From a virus, in IMG/VR virus record IMGVR_UViG_3300021964_000063, positions 1 through 60,230 of that record: 60,230 bases of DNA, one strand, 5' to 3'. The position numbers were made by a program, and so were the translations under genes. The notes below the pieces were generated by a model. That model was not told the origin of the DNA. It saw only the letters and a program-made list of their open reading frames with translations, and did no database searches. Positions within the stretch are counted from its first letter, which is position 1; every line of letters starts with the position of its first letter. This document shows positions 7,342 through 52,241 of the stretch, one piece after another.

Positions 7342-7728
7342 TTAGGTATCAGTAGATATTCCTGTAAAAACATTAATATTTCCTCTTACAACACTGTAAA
7401 GAGTACTTCCGACTCCCATTATAATGTCGTATTCATATCTACCACTCCTGATAGGAATAGTAGTTGCTTTGGCGAGTGTTATACTGAACTCACCTTTATC
7501 TGCATCTGTTATAGTTTCAGTAAAACTAGCAGTTGGGACACCAGATGAACCGATGGAAACAGTTTTAGTCATTTGTGAATACATCGTATGACTCGTCAAA
7601 TTGTAATTTGACCTATCATTATTCAAAATCTTAAATGTCTCTTCAAAATCAACACCAGTATACATTGTAAGGTTCACTCCATAAGGAGTTCTTACCGAGG
7701 GATCAAAGGTAATTGTATTATTTGCCAT
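7342..7728 (-). CDS. Conserved small virion-type protein
   Basis: 128 residues, not assigned to a T4 gene. The sequence is beta-rich and Ser/Thr-rich (SIGSSG, TETITDADKGEF, RSGRYEYDI), similar to small Ig-like or jelly-roll structural domains in phage tails and necks. It is translationally coupled to the gene upstream (11-bp overlap at 7718-7728) and lies between the 2523-residue protein and gp13, where T4 encodes gp11, gp12 and wac. A virion role is inferred from position only. Confidence 0.7.
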   Translation of the reverse strand: MANNTITFDPSVRTPYGVNLTMYTGVDFEETFKILNNDRSNYNLTSHTMYSQMTKTVSIGSSGVPTASFTETITDADKGEFSITLAKATTIPIRSGRYEYDIIMGVGSTLYSVVRGNINVFTGISTDT

Positions 7729-7942
7729 TTGCTATTACTTGGAGAAGAGTTTTGATGTCACTAAGATCATTTTGTAGATTATCCACTTTTTGTTCAAGAT
7801 TATCAACTCTCTTCTTCTCAGAAGAGAGTCTATTTCTTGCATTTATGTAGTTTTCATAATCAGTTTTGTTTCGATTCACGATAGCACCAGTAGTGTTATC
7901 TCTAAAAAATCCATCCTTTCCTTCAATTGGTACTAATGTCAT
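7718..7942 (-). CDS. Small coiled-coil protein of the structural block
   Basis: 74 residues. The first half contains GFFRDNTTGAIVN; the second half is a heptad-like coiled coil (VDNLEQKVDNLQNDL). It starts one base after the stop of the 2523-residue gene and overlaps the next gene by 11 bp, so it is probably co-translated with the structural operon. A small coiled-coil peptide here could be a trimerisation or collar component, but no family was recognised. Confidence 0.65.
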   Translation of the reverse strand: MTLVPIEGKDGFFRDNTTGAIVNRNKTDYENYINARNRLSSEKKRVDNLEQKVDNLQNDLSDIKTLLQVIANGK

Positions 7943-7943
7943 A

Positions 7944-10900
7944 TCAAACTACCGCGACACATCTAAGATTTCTAAACTGAGGAACAATTGCTTGATTGGT
8001 GGATGTTCCTATTAATTTAATCCTAAACATATTAAAGGGAGTTAGATTATCAATAGTAAACTTATACTCTTTAAAGTAATTCAATGATGGATACTGAGTG
8101 TAAACATCCGATGGTGGGACATATACATCTGGTCTGCCATCAGCATTAAATGGTTGAAGAACTGTTCCAAACTCACTTTGATTATTGATGCCTGGGAAAG
8201 GAGTAAATACACATTCTGTAGAAGGAAGATCTTGATCAAGAGCATAGAACATTCTGATGTCATTGAACGTTGAAACATATCCATCAATGAATATTCTTAA
8301 GGACGATGCTGGATTCTCCAAAACAATATTTCTAGTCACATACATCAAACTAGTCGGGTCACTTAAGATTCCTTTTGCTTTGCTATCTGTAGCATAGTTG
8401 GTGATGGGTTGATTTGCTCTATTAGAAACAAATACAACAGCAGCATGATCAAGATCGATAGCAGGAGATAATCTATTATCAACGGTCAGCATATTGCTAT
8501 TCAAAGTCATTGATTTATTGTATGGGAGACCGTTAAGATAACTTCTCTCATTAGTTGAAGAAACAACCATTCTTTGATTATCGAAGTAATTCTTTTCATT
8601 AAGAGAAATTTCTTGATATCCCTTATCCAGGAAAGAGATTTCAGTTCCGCTAACAGATGTTTCAGTGACCGTTCTCATCTGAGAACTAATAGAAGTTCCA
8701 TTAGGTGTAACTGTTCTCAATTTGGGAATAACGATTGAATAAGGAAGATTATATGTTCCTTTAACCTTAGTTCCGCCGCCAGTTTTACTAGTGACAAAAT
8801 ACCGAGAACCTAAAGTAGGAGAAGTAGAACTCCTATCAGTTCCATCAGTAGACATATTAACCTTAATGTTATAGTGATCAAGTCCGATAGCATCAGTAAC
8901 AGTCACATCTGCAAATTGATGTTCTTTATTGATTCTTAGCAAAGAAACTCCACCAAATTCATATCTGTAGACTAGTTCATTTACATTATGAGTAGCAGCA
9001 ACAGTATTATCAACTGCCCTGCTTGATATTCCTACCAAAGAGTTGCCAGCAGTTCCAGTATATGAGATAATCTCACTACCAATCTTTACATATCCAGGAT
9101 TATTAACACTAACAGGAAGACCTTCAAAATCTGCTAAGTTGGCAGTCGATCCGACAGAAATGGCACCTGTATCTGCTTTAGTATATTGAGCAGAAAGTGC
9201 TGTTGGAGTGATGTCAGAACCAACCTCTTTAAGAAGAACTCTGTTTGTGTTTGAATACATTCCATGATTTCTCTGGAACACTTTCAAATGAAGTCCATCA
9301 TTTCTGACAGTAACTGGTGCGTCAGGAACCAAACTTCCACCTACACCCACATTTACATCTGAAGTGATTCCTACAGATGTAGTATATTGTAAGTAGTTAT
9401 TTGCAGTAAACTTGACTTCTCCTTGAACTTTACTGAGTTCAAGTTCATTAAATCCAAGCAATGCATTAACAGACAATTTCATGTCTCTTCCTGGTAATAA
9501 AGCATTACCACCAGTGGTTAATGGTGCTAGAACATCACCAACATTATATCCACTACCGCCCGCATTGATAGTCGCAGCAATAGCAACTCCATTGTTTATT
9601 GTAATGTTAGCGGTTGCATTCACACCTTGACCAGTAAATGCTGTTAAAGCAATTCCAGTATAAGTAAACTGCGATGCTGCGGGAGTATATCCTATTCCTG
9701 GATTAGAAAGTCCAAGATTTCCGGTTGATGAACCAGCAAGACCTACCAATACTCCTCTAAAGTTAGATGAAGTTTGAGTAATTATATCTCCAATTGATAG
9801 TTCTCTTCCAGCATCAACTCCGGTATTATTGATGGTTGTTCCAATCCCAACACTAATCGTTCTAGGAGTAATTGAAATACCATTTCTAGTGATTTTTTCA
9901 AGTTGCTGAGGAAGTTCTGGGTTAAAGAACTGAACAACGCCTTGAGATACGAACTGACAGCGATAAAGAACAAACTTAAGGTCTTCGTATTGACTTGGTG
10001 TCCATACTGAAGCATTCTGAGATTTAAACAAAGAACCTAAGAGAGGTTGCTGAGTAACAATAATTTGTCCTGCTTCTTGGGCAGCAGTTGTTATATCTGC
10101 CTCACCAAATCGGGAAATCCATACGTTGTAATCAGTAACATCTGCCTTAACAATAATCGCATACTCTGTGTTACCGTTCAAATATACTGGAGAGTTAAAA
10201 GTAAATGTAGTTGGAACGGAACCATCTTCAGATATCTCAACAAATTTTGGATCTAAAGTTACTTCAGAGAATGGGAGAATGATATTAGTTGGAGTACCAA
10301 GTCTAGTCTCACGAATTTGAATAGTTACAGGGAAATCTGTTGCTTTAGATTGGAAGAATAAATCAATTTTAGAAAGATATATGCCAGTAAGATCATCAAC
10401 AAAGAATGTTTGAGCGAGAGGATCACCGCGACGAGGACGAGGGGGAGCAGGTGGTGCTGGTGGTGGTGGGGGAGGTGGTATTCTAACAACATTAATATCT
10501 TGTATAATATTAACTTCTGTAGACTCACCAACTAGTTGTCTGCTTTCTGGTTCAATATCTTCATTAGTTGAAACTCTAGCATTTCTCAACGAAAGAGTTA
10601 ATTCTTGAGTGTTATCGAGATCACCTTGAGAATAGAATATTTCTTTAGCACTAGTAGAAAGTGATCCTTTAACTCTACTGTTAATTGAACTACTTGTTAG
10701 TCTAAACTCTGACCTTCCGGTGTCGAAAGTTGGATTAGAGACGCTAGATGGGTCAGGAACACGGAAAGAACCAATCAGAGTACCAACTCGGTCTGTGATA
10801 AGTCTAACAGAGGTTACAGTCGCTTCTGCGCCACTTGTACGTCCTCTCAATACCATTCCTGATTGAATGTATCCAAAGAACTGTGAAAACTCTTCAGACT

Positions 10901-17140: not shown

Positions 17141-20100
17141 TTACACATAATTATTGAATCTAAGAGCATCTCTTCTAGTGATTAGTGCAGAAGTAGAAAT
17201 GCCACCATATCCATTTTCAGTATAGGAACTAAATGTGGTAGAAATACTACTTCTGCTCACATTAATTTTACCCCAACTAAATGATCCAAAACTAGTTGTT
17301 CCATATGAAACAGTGCTTATAGATCCTACATTAGTTATTAATCTTCTGATAGCAGTTGTTCCAACTCCAATCACATTTGATTGTACAGTTGATGCAGAAT
17401 AAACCTGGAATACACCATCCATAAATGATGTGGTAATTCCCAAAGTAGTTCCATCATTATACAAACTTGTGAGAGCAGACCCTACTGTAGGAGAAATATT
17501 AGAGTTGAATACTGTGAAGTATTCTCCTGTTGAAATTCCACTTACAGTTACCGCAGTGCCTACAATATTTGGATTTCTCATATCAGAATCAACTGGAATA
17601 TAGAAATCAAATCTAAGTTGATTAAATGATCCATTAGTTGTTGTGCCAAATCCAACTATATTGCCATAATCTCCATTATAACTGGAGACTGGCATAACTT
17701 CTTTCACCAAAATAGGTTCTTCAATAATTACAGTAGGTGGATGAGTGTAAGTGTATCCAGAACCAACAGTATTCACAGATACAGTCGATAGTTTACCTGA
17801 TGTTATAGATCCAACTCCAGATGCCCTATGAGTGTTGCCAAGACCAATCGGAGGGGCAACACTAATCGCAATCGTAGATAATCCAACATAACCTTGTCCA
17901 GAGTTAGTAACAACAAAAGATGATATTGTTCCAGCAATGCTTACCACTGCAGTCACAGACGCTCCAACCAAAACATCTTGAGTATTAACTACAATTGAGT
18001 TTTGGAAACCTCTTATATTGGACTCATTTCTAGAATCAAATAATGGTCTAACAGTATCAACATATACAATTGTGGTGCTGATGCTCAATGATTGTGTCAG
18101 ATATGCTGCTGGGAAAATAGATGGTTCATATGCTAGTCTATCTTTACCAATTTCATCACCATCAATAATTTTATCAACTTTTTGCTTACACCAATTCAAT
18201 GGTCTATGTAAAGTTTGATCAGTTGTAACTCCTGGTCCAATGTATGAATTAGTTGCTACGCTATCAACAGTATTGATGCCAGTAACAGTTCTGAAATCTT
18301 GATTTAACGTGATAGGTTGATTTAAATCGGGATTGTTGGATAATTTAAGTAAATCACCAACTTTAACTGTTTCTAGAATATCAGTGAATATAACATCAGA
18401 ATCTCCAGCACCTTTATAAAACAAAATCTTGGAAGTATCTCCAGTATTCCCATAACCTACTAGAGATCCTTTGGGTGCCTCACTGAAAGTGATTATGCTA
18501 CCACCGTCAAACTGATATGCTTCACCAGGTTTTTGTAGAACATCATTAATAAAAACTAATAGTGTTTGATCAAGTTCAATATTTGAACCTTTTTGTGATT
18601 GAATTGATATGGTCTCTTCATTTACACTCAATCTAAATGCTTTTGTAGTTCCATCAAACTGATCATCTAATCGATCAAATACTTGGAATTGTCCGATGGA
18701 CCATCCAGCAAATGAATCAGTATGAACACGATCAACAGTAATCTGGAACTCATCAAAGGTTTTAGTGGTATCAGTTGGAATTCCAGTTGCGCCACCAAGA
18801 GCAACAGTTAAAATTTCTCCTTCTCTGTAACCATAACCAGTATCTCTGATCTCAAAATCAATAACACTAGAACCCTGACCTACGACAATATCTGCTGTAG
18901 CACTTCTACCTACACCAGAGGGACTTGAAGAACTGAATATGAGAGGAATATTTGCATAACTAAGTGGTTCATCAAATACCACTACTGGAGCATTTGTAAA
19001 TGTATATCCTGTTCCGGGGTTTGTAATCGCAACACTTACAATATTACCTCCAGATATACTAGCAGTTCCAATAAACTCTACATTTGCTATAACTCCACTG
19101 TAAGTTTGAACACCAACATTGACAACAGTTTGAATGCCAGATCTATATCCAGAACCACTATTTCCAATACTAATAGAAGTAATAGTGCCTGCTGCAGATA
19201 CTAAAGCAGTCCCTCCTGCTGATATTAATGGCTGATATCCAAATCCACCTGTTGAACCTAGTGAAATAAACTGTCCACCAGCTGGTAGAGATGATTTATT
19301 GTAATCATATCCTGAAGAACTAGGACTGCCTGTAAATGTAATAGAACTTATACCTGTAGGAAGATCTTCAATAACATTATAATCACCTTTATATGCCTGA
19401 ACACCTTGTGGTGTTTGATGGATACCATTCACAAGAACAATTGTACTTGTTGTTATTCCGGTAATATTTGAAGCATTAGAAGTTAATGTATATGTTTGAC
19501 CAATGCCTGTAAATCTATCAGAGATAGAATCAAAAACATAATTTTGATGATAAGTCTCATTTGTAGTTCCTGCACCAGCACCTTTCATAAATGTTCTGCC
19601 TTGGAAATTAGAACTCGTAGTAATTCCAGTCCAATCTCTGCTACTAGGATCACCGGTTGTAGTGCTTAGTGGAGAATTGCCCGTAGGCGCAACACCAAAG
19701 AAAAGTTGATTATTGATGATATTGTAATTGCCTTCATATTTTGTAATTGTTGTTCCAGTCGTGTGTATAGCAACAGTTGATCCAAAATCACCTCTAGATA
19801 CTGAAACTTTTATTGTATTTCCAACTCCAATGGTTTTAAGAATCATGTATTCATCATCAATTTTAATCACATCTCCTGATGTGAATGAGGTTAGTCCAGT
19901 GGTGTTGAACACAAGATCAAAGATAATATTTTGATCCAATGTAGTAGTGATGTCTGTAACGGCAAGTGGAGACTGAATCATGTTATCAATTGTGAGCAAT
20001 GCCTTAGCATTCTGATTTGTAGAGTTAAACGCATGAGATGCGCCAGCTCCTACAGCACTTATTCCAATGGGAACAGGTGGTACACTTAAAGCGTTTTCTG

Positions 20101-38306: not shown

Positions 38307-39194
38307 TTACCTATTAAACTTGCCCTCTGTGAAGTTTACATAACTGAAAACAGTACGGTTCACTAACTTGATCGCACCTTCCTCACTCCAATATACAAAA
38401 CCCTCTCCTACAGTTTGTGTACCATCAGGGAGAAATGTATCAAAGTCAGAATATACAATCATACTATCAATCACGTCCTCTTTCAGTTCAATCACCCACT
38501 GATATAAGTTTGTAAGATGTGGACAACGTAAGATAGTTGTGAGAACTCCATCATCTAACTCAACACCAGATTTAATCAACTGATTGATTGCTTGCTTCGC
38601 ACGATTTGCTTGCTTAGGTGATAGAAACTTTACTGTGTCTGTGTTAATAATAGGCGGTTCAATCTGCGATGCAATACGATCAACAATTGGCATCACAAAC
38701 TTGACATGTGGAGTATCATCGAAGTTTGTACGAATCGGAAGCGGTGCAGCATCACATAGTTCACCATCAATGTAATACTTTGTATGTGGTGCGATAACAA
38801 GTTTCTGATAGATTTTCTCTCCGAAGATATATGTTAGTGTGTTATTTGAAAATACTTCTGTTCTACCAAACCCAAGGAAGTCACCCTGATATACACCATC
38901 AACGCGAGGCATATATTTCAGCATAAGATACAATATATCTGCTACATCATCTTGATGTCCAAAGTGTGTAAAGATGTCCTCTGTTGTATAACAAAGTCGA
39001 ATCTTTTTCTTGTTGAATGCTGCTTTAGTACAAACAAAAAACTTACCATTAGCAGGATTAGTCCCCCATACAACAGCAGGAGCACCATCCATCTTTAAAC
39101 TAATATGATAAGCATTGCTATAAAGTGCATCAAAGATAGAAAGATCACCAGTCAAAATGGTGTCTTCAGCGTGTTCTAAGTGAGTGTTTGGCAT
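38307..39194 (-). CDS. KxDG nucleotidyltransferase (RNA/DNA ligase-like) protein
   Basis: 295 residues. SLKMDGAPAVVWG supplies ligase motif I (K34-x-D36-G37, Lys as nucleotide acceptor). EGFVYW (264-269) resembles motif IV, and AIKLVNR (274-280) resembles motif V with its Lys. YQGDFLGF and YIDGEL lie between them where motifs III/IIIa fall. This is the pattern of ATP-dependent polynucleotide ligases, without an evident C-terminal OB domain. It may repair tRNA or RNA cut by host defences, or seal DNA. The gene directly follows joint repeat copy 7 with no Shine-Dalgarno. Confidence 0.7.
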   Translation of the reverse strand: MPNTHLEHAEDTILTGDLSIFDALYSNAYHISLKMDGAPAVVWGTNPANGKFFVCTKAAFNKKKIRLCYTTEDIFTHFGHQDDVADILYLMLKYMPRVDGVYQGDFLGFGRTEVFSNNTLTYIFGEKIYQKLVIAPHTKYYIDGELCDAAPLPIRTNFDDTPHVKFVMPIVDRIASQIEPPIINTDTVKFLSPKQANRAKQAINQLIKSGVELDDGVLTTILRCPHLTNLYQWVIELKEDVIDSMIVYSDFDTFLPDGTQTVGEGFVYWSEEGAIKLVNRTVFSYVNFTEGKFNR

Positions 39195-45009: not shown

Positions 45010-45222
45010 TCAAGCAGCAGGTGCTTCAGTTGATGCTTTGCCTACGTTAGAAGGACCAACCCAAACAAGGTTATTCTCCTTCCAATATGTTACAAATGCA
45101 CGACGAAGTTCAGTCAGTTCAGTGTAACGTGACTGCTGCTCTTTAGTATAAGAGAAGTTTTGTGTGCGCCATACCTTACGCAGTTCCTGAAGTTCGCGGA
45201 GCACTTGTGAAGAGTTGTTCAT
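45010..45222 (-). CDS. Small helical hypothetical protein
   Basis: 70 residues: a long helix (VLRELQELRKVWR, RYTELTELRRAFVTYW) and a short Ala-rich tail (KASTEAPAA). The start is ~18 nt after joint repeat copy 11. Not recognised. Confidence 0.6.
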   Translation of the reverse strand: MNNSSQVLRELQELRKVWRTQNFSYTKEQQSRYTELTELRRAFVTYWKENNLVWVGPSNVGKASTEAPAA

Positions 45223-45240
45223 GTCATCGTGTGTCTTACA

Positions 45241-45268
45241 CTACAGAGGAACTTTAGAGGTTACTAAC
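45241..45268 (-). repeat. 28-bp joint repeat, copy 11
   Basis: CTACAGAGGAACTTTAGAGG form; the last copy seen in the window, between the stop at 45270 and the start at 45222. Confidence 0.88.
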
Positions 45269-45269
45269 T

Positions 45270-45815
45270 TTAACTACCAGGAAGTGCCTTGCGTTGAGGT
45301 GCAGCATTGAGTGCAGTCCTTACAGGTGAACTACTCAAACTCTTACGTTCTGGAGATGAACTTAACTGCGGGGATGCTTTCTTACCTTTCATAAGATCAG
45401 GTCTTTGTGCTGTACCTAATTGGGGTCTAAAAGACGCTGTAGCAGGTCTTTTAACAGCAGGTTGAGGTTTACTTACCTTTGCGATTGCACCGCCCTTAGA
45501 AGATGATTTATCAGCAGGTTTTGAACTTCTATATGGTTGAGGTTTTCTTGATTGTGTAGAACCTGCCGTATTCTGTCCAGCATTCTTTACTTCTTGACCA
45601 GCATTCTTAGCAATGTTTTGCTTCTCTTTAGGCGTTGCTTTTCTACCTTTCTTTTTATTATCTCCAGAACCTAAACTTAAACCAAGTCTAGGTCTTTCCC
45701 TGAAAGGTTTAGTTGAACCACCTTGAGTTCCTGACTGTGGTGTAGAACCACTGCCGTAACTTGTTTGTGTTTGTTGTTCAATTGCTTCGCTAAAAAACTC
45801 TTGGAATGTCTTCAT
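45270..45815 (-). CDS. Predicted encapsidated internal protein with capsid-targeting sequence (A)
   Basis: 181 residues. The N-terminus MKTFQEFFSE matches the capsid-targeting sequence of T4 internal proteins IPI-IPIII and Alt (MKTYQEFIAE), after which prohead protease gp21 cleaves; the expected cut is after residue 10. The rest is disordered, basic and rich in Ser, Pro, Gly and Gln (TSYGSGSTPQSG, KKKGRKATPKEK, PERKSLSSSPVR), without Trp. This suits a DNA-associated protein packaged in the head and injected with the DNA. It overlaps the next such gene by 4 bp. Confidence 0.72.
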   Translation of the reverse strand: MKTFQEFFSEAIEQQTQTSYGSGSTPQSGTQGGSTKPFRERPRLGLSLGSGDNKKKGRKATPKEKQNIAKNAGQEVKNAGQNTAGSTQSRKPQPYRSSKPADKSSSKGGAIAKVSKPQPAVKRPATASFRPQLGTAQRPDLMKGKKASPQLSSSPERKSLSSSPVRTALNAAPQRKALPGS

Positions 45816-46435
45816 TTCATTCTTGCGTGAACTCTACCCATAATCTTGGTTCTACCTTTGGCATCAGGGTTTTGACCGGTTTCTTTCTTATACTTAGCAG
45901 TTTCTTGGTCCTTGAAGATACCACGCAACATAGTTTCACCTGCACGTTGCTGCTTCATTCTCTCCTGGCGTGTCATACCAGACGCTTTTGCTGGTTTATA
46001 ATCAGGTGATACAGGTTTCTCAGGGTTCTTCTTACTTAGTAGTTTAGTTCCTGCCTTTTCAGTGTCTTTAGATTTAGGTTCATCTGTTGTTGTAGTTCCA
46101 CCAGATTGTTTTGCTGCTGCTCTTGCTTGTGCTGCTTTTCTCCTTTCTGCTTTTACTTTATCAGCATAGGATTGTTTAACTTCAGCACTACCTCTTTCTT
46201 TTGTTGGTTGTTGCTGTGTTTGTGATCTTGGTTTAGGAGTACCAATATCTTTTCTGTCTTTATACTGCACTGGTTCTTGCTTACCGCCACCAGTCGCTTT
46301 CATCCTGCGTCTCTCAGGATCAGATTTCTTCTTGGAAGGATATAATCTACCACCTTCACCTGTCTTTCTTATTTGTGAACGACCCTGAACTTCAGGGTCA
46401 TACACTTCGCTCATGAACTCTTGAAAAGTTTTCAT
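45812..46435 (-). CDS. Predicted encapsidated internal protein with capsid-targeting sequence (B)
   Basis: 207 residues. MKTFQEFMSE at the N-terminus is the same capsid-targeting-like signal as in gene A; the remaining sequence is not alignable with A by eye. It is extremely basic and low-complexity (KKKSDPERRRMKATGGGK, VKAERRKAAQARAAAK) with a C-terminal GRTKIMGRVHARMK. Predicted to be cleaved and packed with DNA, in the manner of T4 internal proteins, some of which inhibit host restriction after injection. It overlaps both neighbours by 1-4 bp. Confidence 0.72.
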   Translation of the reverse strand: MKTFQEFMSEVYDPEVQGRSQIRKTGEGGRLYPSKKKSDPERRRMKATGGGKQEPVQYKDRKDIGTPKPRSQTQQQPTKERGSAEVKQSYADKVKAERRKAAQARAAAKQSGGTTTTDEPKSKDTEKAGTKLLSKKNPEKPVSPDYKPAKASGMTRQERMKQQRAGETMLRGIFKDQETAKYKKETGQNPDAKGRTKIMGRVHARMK

Positions 46436-46626
46436 TACCCTTGCACCACGGTTACATTAGTGAATCCACCATTTTTACCATCTGGATTAGCAATAGCAGC
46501 ATTTGCTTTTGCTTTTGATGAATAAGTTACTTTACCAACTGACTCATCAGTCCAGCGATTGCCACCGTGATAATACACAGTTTTAGTAGGTTCAATTATG
46601 CTTGGTTTAGTAAGATAATATGCCAT
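46435..46626 (-). CDS. Conserved small cyanophage-type protein
   Basis: 63 residues: MAYYLTKPSIIEPTKTVYYH, GNRWTDESV, and SSKAKANAAIANPDGKNGGF. The pattern of a beta-rich N-terminus, aromatic GG-x-RW and an AKANA helix is familiar from cyanophage small proteins. A 13-bp hairpin ends two bases before the ATG. It overlaps internal protein gene B by 1 bp. Confidence 0.68.
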   Translation of the reverse strand: MAYYLTKPSIIEPTKTVYYHGGNRWTDESVGKVTYSSKAKANAAIANPDGKNGGFTNVTVVQG

Positions 46627-46627
46627 G

Positions 46628-46663
46628 ATTGAGAGACTAATATATTATATTTAGTCTCTCAAT
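46628..46663. other. Perfect 13-bp hairpin before a start codon
   Basis: ATTGAGAGACTAA and TTAGTCTCTCAAT separated by 10 bases. It follows the stop of the 46673 gene and abuts the ATG at 46626. No T-run follows on the minus strand, so it is more likely a translation control or RNA-stability element than a terminator. CTAAATA (late-promoter-like) lies within it. Confidence 0.7.
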
Positions 46664-51833: not shown

Positions 51834-52241
51834 TCAGATATCCGTATCACCAAGGATTTGATAGTTGATAGCACTACCAATACCTGCTCCTCCAACTGTT
51901 GATGCTGGTTGTGTAACTTCTACAACAATCTTTTCTTGATTTACCAGAACCAATGGATAGTTCATCTCATAGAAGAATGTTTCATTAGAACTTAAATCAA
52001 CTCTTGCTAATCTATATGCCGTCTGCCCTACCGATACATCACTTACACTGCTTGGATATACATAAAGTGATGAAGTTGCAGTAGAAAGTCCAGTATTATG
52101 CATTACCACACCTCTCAGGTATGTGGTTGATGCAATACCAACTCCACCGGCAGTTTGAGTCACTCCGACAGTCAAAATACCAACGGTGTTAATTCCAGTA
52201 ACTGCCTGAATTCCTAATAGTTTAGTTCTTTTGAGTCCCAT
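51834..52241 (-). CDS. Fibre-cassette accessory protein (paralogue of 58145)
   Basis: 135 residues, beta-rich: TGINTVGILTVG, VVMHNTGLSTATSSLYVYPS, SSNETFFYEMNYPLVLVNQE. The segment NETFFYEMNYPLVL matches the KETALIEPIYPIVL segment of the 112-residue protein at 58145. Both precede a glycine-rich fibre gene, so it may be a trimeric cap or chaperone. A late promoter lies at 52250-52265. Confidence 0.65.
   Translation of the reverse strand: MGLKRTKLLGIQAVTGINTVGILTVGVTQTAGGVGIASTTYLRGVVMHNTGLSTATSSLYVYPSSVSDVSVGQTAYRLARVDLSSNETFFYEMNYPLVLVNQEKIVVEVTQPASTVGGAGIGSAINYQILGDTDI

Follow-up and report, generated by a model that had tools for sequence, protein, structure and literature searches.

Two neighbouring genes of an environmental virus encode proteins that begin with nearly the same ten residues and continue with bodies showing no sequence relation to each other. 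This raises the question of what the common start does, and whether the two proteins belong together. The genes lie in IMG/VR record IMGVR_UViG_3300021964_000063, whose entire 60,230 bases were analyzed and are called the window here. The window is a fragment of a T4-like, Kyanoviridae-like cyanophage on which genes for baseplate, neck, and tail are found; the two genes are adjoined by those for a helicase and a DNA methyltransferase.

Two tagged genes in a short operon

Both genes are located on the minus strand. P2 (207 amino acids [aa]; 45812..46435) starts with MKTFQEFMSEVYDPE and combines a capsid-targeting sequence (CTS) with a basic, mostly disordered body and predicted C-terminal helices. 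P1 (181 aa; 45270..45815) starts with MKTFQEFFSEAIEQQ and features a CTS followed by a disordered body rich in Pro, Ala, Lys, and Arg, with the C terminus QRKALPGS. The first-pass annotation, which had described two adjacent proteins both starting with MKTFQEF-x-SE, is borne out at exactly these positions. The CTS of P2, MKTFQEFMSE (46406..46435, minus strand), has its predicted processing site between E10 and V11, and that of P1, MKTFQEFFSE (45786..45815, minus strand), between E10 and A11, with a Phe at P3. Within the window, P1 and P2 are the only proteins with MKTFQEF starts of this kind.

The stop codon of P2 and the start codon of P1 overlap by 4 nucleotides (nt) in an ATGA (45812..45815, minus strand), a layout also found in L108 and L447-L449, and this overlap makes translational coupling of P2 and P1 likely. 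The first gene of the operon (46435..46626, minus strand) encodes a 63-aa protein of phrog_24339, to which no function is assigned, and has 1 nt in common with the P2 start (TAATG); in S-B05, too, a homologue immediately precedes the counterpart of P2. A late-promoter-like CTAAATA motif (46648..46654, minus strand) is found 22 to 28 nt upstream of the first ATG of the operon and in the same place in L108. CTAAATA or ATAAATA also occurs 20 to 30 nt before gp25 (31700), gp8 (17096), and a gp13-like gene (7309) of the window, as well as before the tail-fibre-like genes at 52241, 52951, 57063, 58483, and 58838. The late promoter of S-PM2 reads NATAAATA (PMC2984593). The conserved CTAAATA motif would fit late expression of the operon. 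A perfect 10-bp inverted repeat, GAGAGACTAA and TTAGTCTCTC, flanks this motif (window positions 46624 to 46660, minus strand) and is largely kept in L108; it is a possible operator or terminator. A solved-structure homologue was not found for the neighbouring 290-aa protein.

The mature bodies of both proteins are strongly basic (pI of 11.3 for P1 and 10.3 for P2), contain neither Cys nor Trp, and are rich in disorder-promoting residues by composition. Compared with L108, dN/dS is ∼0.18 for P2 and ∼0.10 for P1. Because this indicates purifying selection, P1 and P2 are genuine proteins despite their low complexity. The AlphaFold model of P2 shows a helix over the tag (residues 4 to 11), low confidence for most of residues 12 to 90, and confident C-terminal helices; with a pTM of 0.29, no fold is claimed. 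Neither protein matched a Pfam or PHROG family, nor was a match to an ADP-ribosyltransferase (ART) domain, as expected of an Alt-like enzyme, found for either of them.

The tag and its cleavage site

Mutational work on the T4 internal protein IPIII showed that residues 4 and 7 govern targeting and that processing depends on residues 8 and 10; tag length ranges from 10 to 19 residues (PMC9026906). P1 and P2 both have aromatic residues at positions 4 and 7 (MKTFQEF), and both tags end in hydrophobic-x-Glu, namely, MSE/V in P2 and FSE/A in P1, with the slash marking the predicted cut. The Phe at P3 of P1 is atypical, as T4 prefers Leu or Ile, and recurs in the virion-detected protein gp136 of S-CREM2 and in the cytidylyltransferase of P-TIM68. 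The earlier reading of the start as a T4-type CTS thus holds, with the T4-critical residues conserved and tag-bearing proteins detected in cyanophage virions.

The tag is distributed nonrandomly. A DNA pattern for MKTFQEFxxE gives at least 120 matches in IMG/VR, compared with 0 and 1 matches for two residue-permuted versions of it, and only 2 matches in 257 Gb of bacterial and archaeal genomes, neither of which resembles a tagged cargo. When only MKTFQEF was fixed, matches of at least 40 aa numbered 95, and for 94 of these a stop codon lies in frame no more than 40 codons upstream; these matches therefore represent true open reading frame (ORF) starts.

The cleavage-site rule was derived from 40 cargo-distinct MKTFQEF proteins with no residue fixed beyond position 7. 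A [ILVMF]xE site follows shortly after F7 in 38 of them, against 16.8 expected from shuffles, and none of 5,000 shuffles reached 38. Its Glu is at position 9, 10, 12, 13, 14, or 18, and the residue after it (n = 38) is often Ala (14), Ser (5), or Cys (4). A fixed Glu10 was considered and discarded. Since E10 is present in only 19 of the 40 proteins, compared with 38 with hydrophobic-x-Glu anywhere from E9 to E18, the rule describes a site and not a position. The spacing varies while the site is kept, a behaviour expected of a protease site and not of a helix pattern.

A search for the gp21-type protease (PF03420) gave a match in each of the 11 complete phage records and above-cutoff matches in 6 of another 11 large viral records; the 60-kb fragment itself does not contain gp21. 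All cyanophage and pelagiphage gp23 sequences that were read show [LI]xE or LME at the place of the T4 maturation site FLTE/A.

Cargo range

The first-pass annotation had proposed a search for such starts in other cyanophages. A search of this kind led to at least 247 distinct tagged proteins in at least 72 clusters of unrelated cargos from marine and freshwater phages, often encoded in tandem. Recognizable cargos include cytidylyltransferase-like enzymes, adenylate kinase, GNAT acetyltransferases, cell-wall enzymes of the double-psi beta-barrel and glucosaminidase types, DUF5661, DUF5662, DUF6267, and DUF6321. The densest array seen comprises five tandem genes (L057:5915-9422) with MKTFKQF or MKSFKSF starts and unrelated bodies. 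Tagged and untagged members exist in the DUF6267 family: a relative in L043 (947-2098) starts with MKTFAQFISEA, and the DUF6267/phrog_455 protein of the window (38307-39194), which contains a KMDG reminiscent of nucleotidyltransferase/ligase motif I, has no tag.

A family of small tagged proteins (L165:3965-4420, L150, L184, L166, L153, L110, L018, L059, and L029) shows subthreshold matches to ART domains. Its structural model (pTM of 0.62) best matches structures of the ADP-ribosyltransferase superfamily, with Tpt1/KptA as the best match, and the family may be an environmental equivalent of T4 Alt.

Tagged proteins in virions of relatives

Proteomes of related cyanophages link the tag to virion-detected nonstructural proteins. 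The cyanophage core protein T4-GC190 was detected in purified S-SM1 particles (PMC3037559), and the T4-GC190 cytidylyltransferase of S-SM2 carries the tag MKSFFQFLSEA. Its counterparts SSCSM1_91 of S-SCSM1 (MKSFLQFLKEA; PMC9602691) and S-SZBM1_140 of S-SZBM1 (MRFRQFIIEA; PMC9146016) are also virion detected. In S-CREM2, virion-detected nonstructural proteins start with MKDFDSFLEE (SAM hydrolase), VKRFDAFLTE (kinase), MKNFSSFLTEA (cytidylyltransferase), and MKDLHSFLTE (PMC10665884), and the undetected genes near them do not show such starts. With a tag pattern that was relaxed after some of the S-CREM2 N termini had been seen, all 5 matching genes of this genome are detected, and there is no match among its 166 undetected genes (Fisher P = 5.7e-4). 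The virion-detected Cas9-like nuclease gp12 of S-CREM2 (7704-10313) contains LRFASFMAEA ∼17 residues into the annotated protein, the start of which may be placed too far upstream.

The small tagged proteins S-SZBM1_191 and S-SCSM1_30 are not marked as virion detected in the accessible parts of the respective papers and annotations. In the accessible parts of two of these proteome studies (PMC9602691 and PMC10665884), the authors hold carryover during purification possible and propose no packaging signal.

P1 and P2 families and their fusions

tblastn searches with P2 gave matches solely in cyanophage and marine virus records, with homologues in P-TIM68, SynMITS9220M01, S-B05, RN05-S, RB11-B, and S-SM2. 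A search with the P2 body, from which the tag had been removed, retrieved 545 IMG/VR relatives. A CTS-like start is present in 71 of the 80 relatives that were read; in several of the remaining 9, the tag is displaced or extended. This set is free of the bias of alignment A3, whose search design made the tag invariant. Indels between F7 and the body of P2-family proteins keep hydrophobic-x-Glu directly before the body, as in MFE/V, FLE/A, LTE/V, ITE/A, LAE/A, and LCE/A. In the P2 homologue of P-TIM68 (45038-45652, corresponding to L001:3974-4588), the annotated start MKQINLP is probably 7 codons early, as an inner Met gives MKRSFLEFMSLCE/A. For the homologue of S-SM2, the predicted N terminus after cleavage is AYDKDVMGSSQIR.

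Near-identical copies of P1 are found beside P2 in IMG/VR contigs, with more distant relatives elsewhere (P1 relatives are L108, L156, L143, L194, L195, and L206). tblastn with P1 against phages, with low complexity filtered, found nothing, and a fused relative as the query gave only hits with E values of about 0.2, which were not used.

In six contigs, apparently of three lineages, P2 and P1 form a single ORF. The P2 part shows ∼70% identity (E values of 1e-71 to 1e-93) and is followed by a P1 part with ∼40% identity (1e-18 to 1e-21). At the join, the MKTFQEFF of P1 is gone and an MSE/S site is kept, which leaves the fusion with a single tag but with a candidate cut site before each part. The reverse order, with a P1-like part ahead of the P2 body, occurs in L502 and L504-L507. 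In further fusions, the P2 body is preceded by modules of other kinds, and the join reads TNE, QNE, or SSE. Cleavage at these joins is doubtful; because P3 is not hydrophobic, the Glu may belong to the P2 body.

The fusions make it very likely that P1 and P2 work together; a conserved internal-head module of two parts describes them better than a pair of independent effectors. Of the earlier description of unrelated basic disordered bodies, the missing sequence relation between P1 and P2 stands, but the two proteins are linked and, in relatives, fused.

Proposed mechanism and alternative explanations

These data are best accounted for by P1 and P2 being internal head proteins that are loaded through the tag, trimmed by gp21, and associated with DNA and that act as a unit, a reading to which a probability of about 0.82 is given. 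Both proteins would be made late from the short operon. The MKTFQEF(F/M)SE start would form a short helix that binds the scaffold core of the prohead through Phe4 and Phe7, followed by a cut of the prohead protease gp21 after the Glu of hydrophobic-x-Glu, by which the tag would be lost. The basic, mostly disordered bodies would remain in the head on the packaged DNA and probably exit with it. P1 and P2 would act as one unit, which in relatives would be a single polypeptide with a single tag and the internal MSE/S. Packaging of P1 and P2 is likely from the homology of the signal, the family-wide statistics, and the proteomes of relatives. Cleavage after the site Glu is predicted from the site rule, and injection would follow by analogy with T4. 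As a best guess, composition suggests DNA binding or protection of the incoming DNA as the task of the bodies. Their broad conservation, purifying selection, and fusion are no less compatible with internal-head or DNA-associated proteins than with the hypervariable antirestriction type represented by IPI.

The tag might instead mark structural or core-assembly proteins, similar to T4 IPIII, gp67, and gp68, with no effector role in the new host. This is a serious possibility, although not a probable one: the wide conservation of P2 (545 relatives), purifying selection, the basic disordered makeup, and the P1-P2 fusion are all compatible with it, and T4 IPIII mutants are slow in head assembly (PMC9026906). 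However, P2 was found in only 10 phage records compared with hundreds of cyanophages in the collection, and it is therefore not generally required for head building; the operon also lies outside the head module. Targeting to the head without any processing appears unlikely. In T4, an Asp at position 10 prevents processing while leaving targeting intact (PMC9026906), and the unusual Phe at P3 of P1 could point in the same direction, but hydrophobic-x-Glu is kept at varying distances in 38 of 40 unrelated cargos and across the indels of the P2 family, and the fused P2-P1 ORFs lose the aromatic part of the second tag while keeping MSE/S.

Very unlikely is a noncapsid function of MKTFxxF as an N-terminal motif in translation start, as a degron, or in membrane contact. 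The motif is short, and packaging of P1 and P2 is an extrapolation, but such a function would leave unexplained the identity with the tag of T4 internal proteins, the near absence from 257 Gb of cellular genomes, and the association with virion-detected nonstructural proteins. Adjacent genes could also share a start through local duplication; a chance likeness of two duplicated N termini is, however, hardly credible and is refuted by the genome-wide scan and the permuted patterns (0 and 1 versus at least 120 matches), with at least 72 unrelated cargo clusters sharing the tag.

Beyond this locus, the chances are about even that T4-like phages of marine and freshwater habitats use the tag as a general export address. 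In that case, the acquisition of some 10 residues would secure head loading, gp21 trimming, and delivery to the next host for at least 72 unrelated cargos, among them nucleotidyltransferases, adenylate kinase, acetyltransferases, ADP-ribosyltransferase-like proteins, and cell-wall enzymes, and some phages would use a P2-P1 polyprotein whose two cargos enter with a single tag and are separated by gp21. The latter would mean that prohead maturation also acts on a polyprotein. New here are the breadth of the tag beyond T4 and its close relatives and the fused single-tag forms. No report of the tag in cyanophages was found in the searched open-access literature, and the literature search found no paper with the literal tag strings. 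Nonstructural enzymes recur in cyanophage virion proteomes, where their presence is unexplained or suspected to be carryover (PMC9602691 and PMC10665884). A 10-residue tag with a cleavage rule would explain the entry of these enzymes and predict other carried proteins, and it offers a sequence-search route to proteins that environmental phages may inject into cyanobacteria.

Comparison with known systems

The closest known system is the CTS of the T4 internal proteins described by Mullaney and Black and reviewed elsewhere (PMC9026906 and PMC3012670). The first-pass annotation had attributed MKTYQEFIAE to T4 IPI, IPII, IPIII, and Alt. This is correct for IPII and IPIII, which read MKTYQEFIAE/A in the genome. 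IPI (95 aa) starts with MKTFKEFTSTTTPVSTITE/A, in which MKTFKEF is followed by a Glu at position 19, in agreement with the 76-residue mature form, and Alt does not share the tag, as it reads MELITELFDE. Common to IPI, IPII, IPIII, P1, and P2 are the MKT[FY]xEF start with hydrophobic-x-Glu at a variable distance (E10 or E19) and basic, mutually unrelated bodies behind one tag. In contrast to the T4 proteins, the bodies of P1 and P2 show no detectable relation to internal proteins, are more disordered, and are conserved in many phages; they are also found fused to each other behind a single tag, with MSE/S inside the fusion. Their cleavage and injection are predictions. T4 gene 61.1 (18966-19130) encodes the hypothetical 54-aa protein gp61.1, which starts with MKTFKEFIKE and may be an unrecognized small internal head protein.

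Alt itself, which has a 7-residue propeptide, enters the core and is processed by gp21 (PMC9026906), as proposed here for the tagged cargos, but with MELITELFDE instead of MKTYQEF as its start. Some tagged proteins share a predicted ADP-ribosyltransferase-like fold with Alt; no such domain match was found for P1 and P2. Head ejection proteins of the phiKZ/SPN3US type also have propeptides that are cut by the prohead protease and are ejected with the DNA (PMC5694885). They differ in that several of these propeptides exceed 100 residues, and no match to the tag pattern was found in phiKZ. The T4-GC190 cytidylyltransferase/NMNAT carries the same tag as P1 and P2 on a nonstructural protein of the virion, but with an enzyme domain in place of a disordered body. 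Its presence in virions of S-SM1, S-SCSM1, S-SZBM1, and S-CREM2 was established by mass spectrometry in studies whose accessible parts identify no tag.
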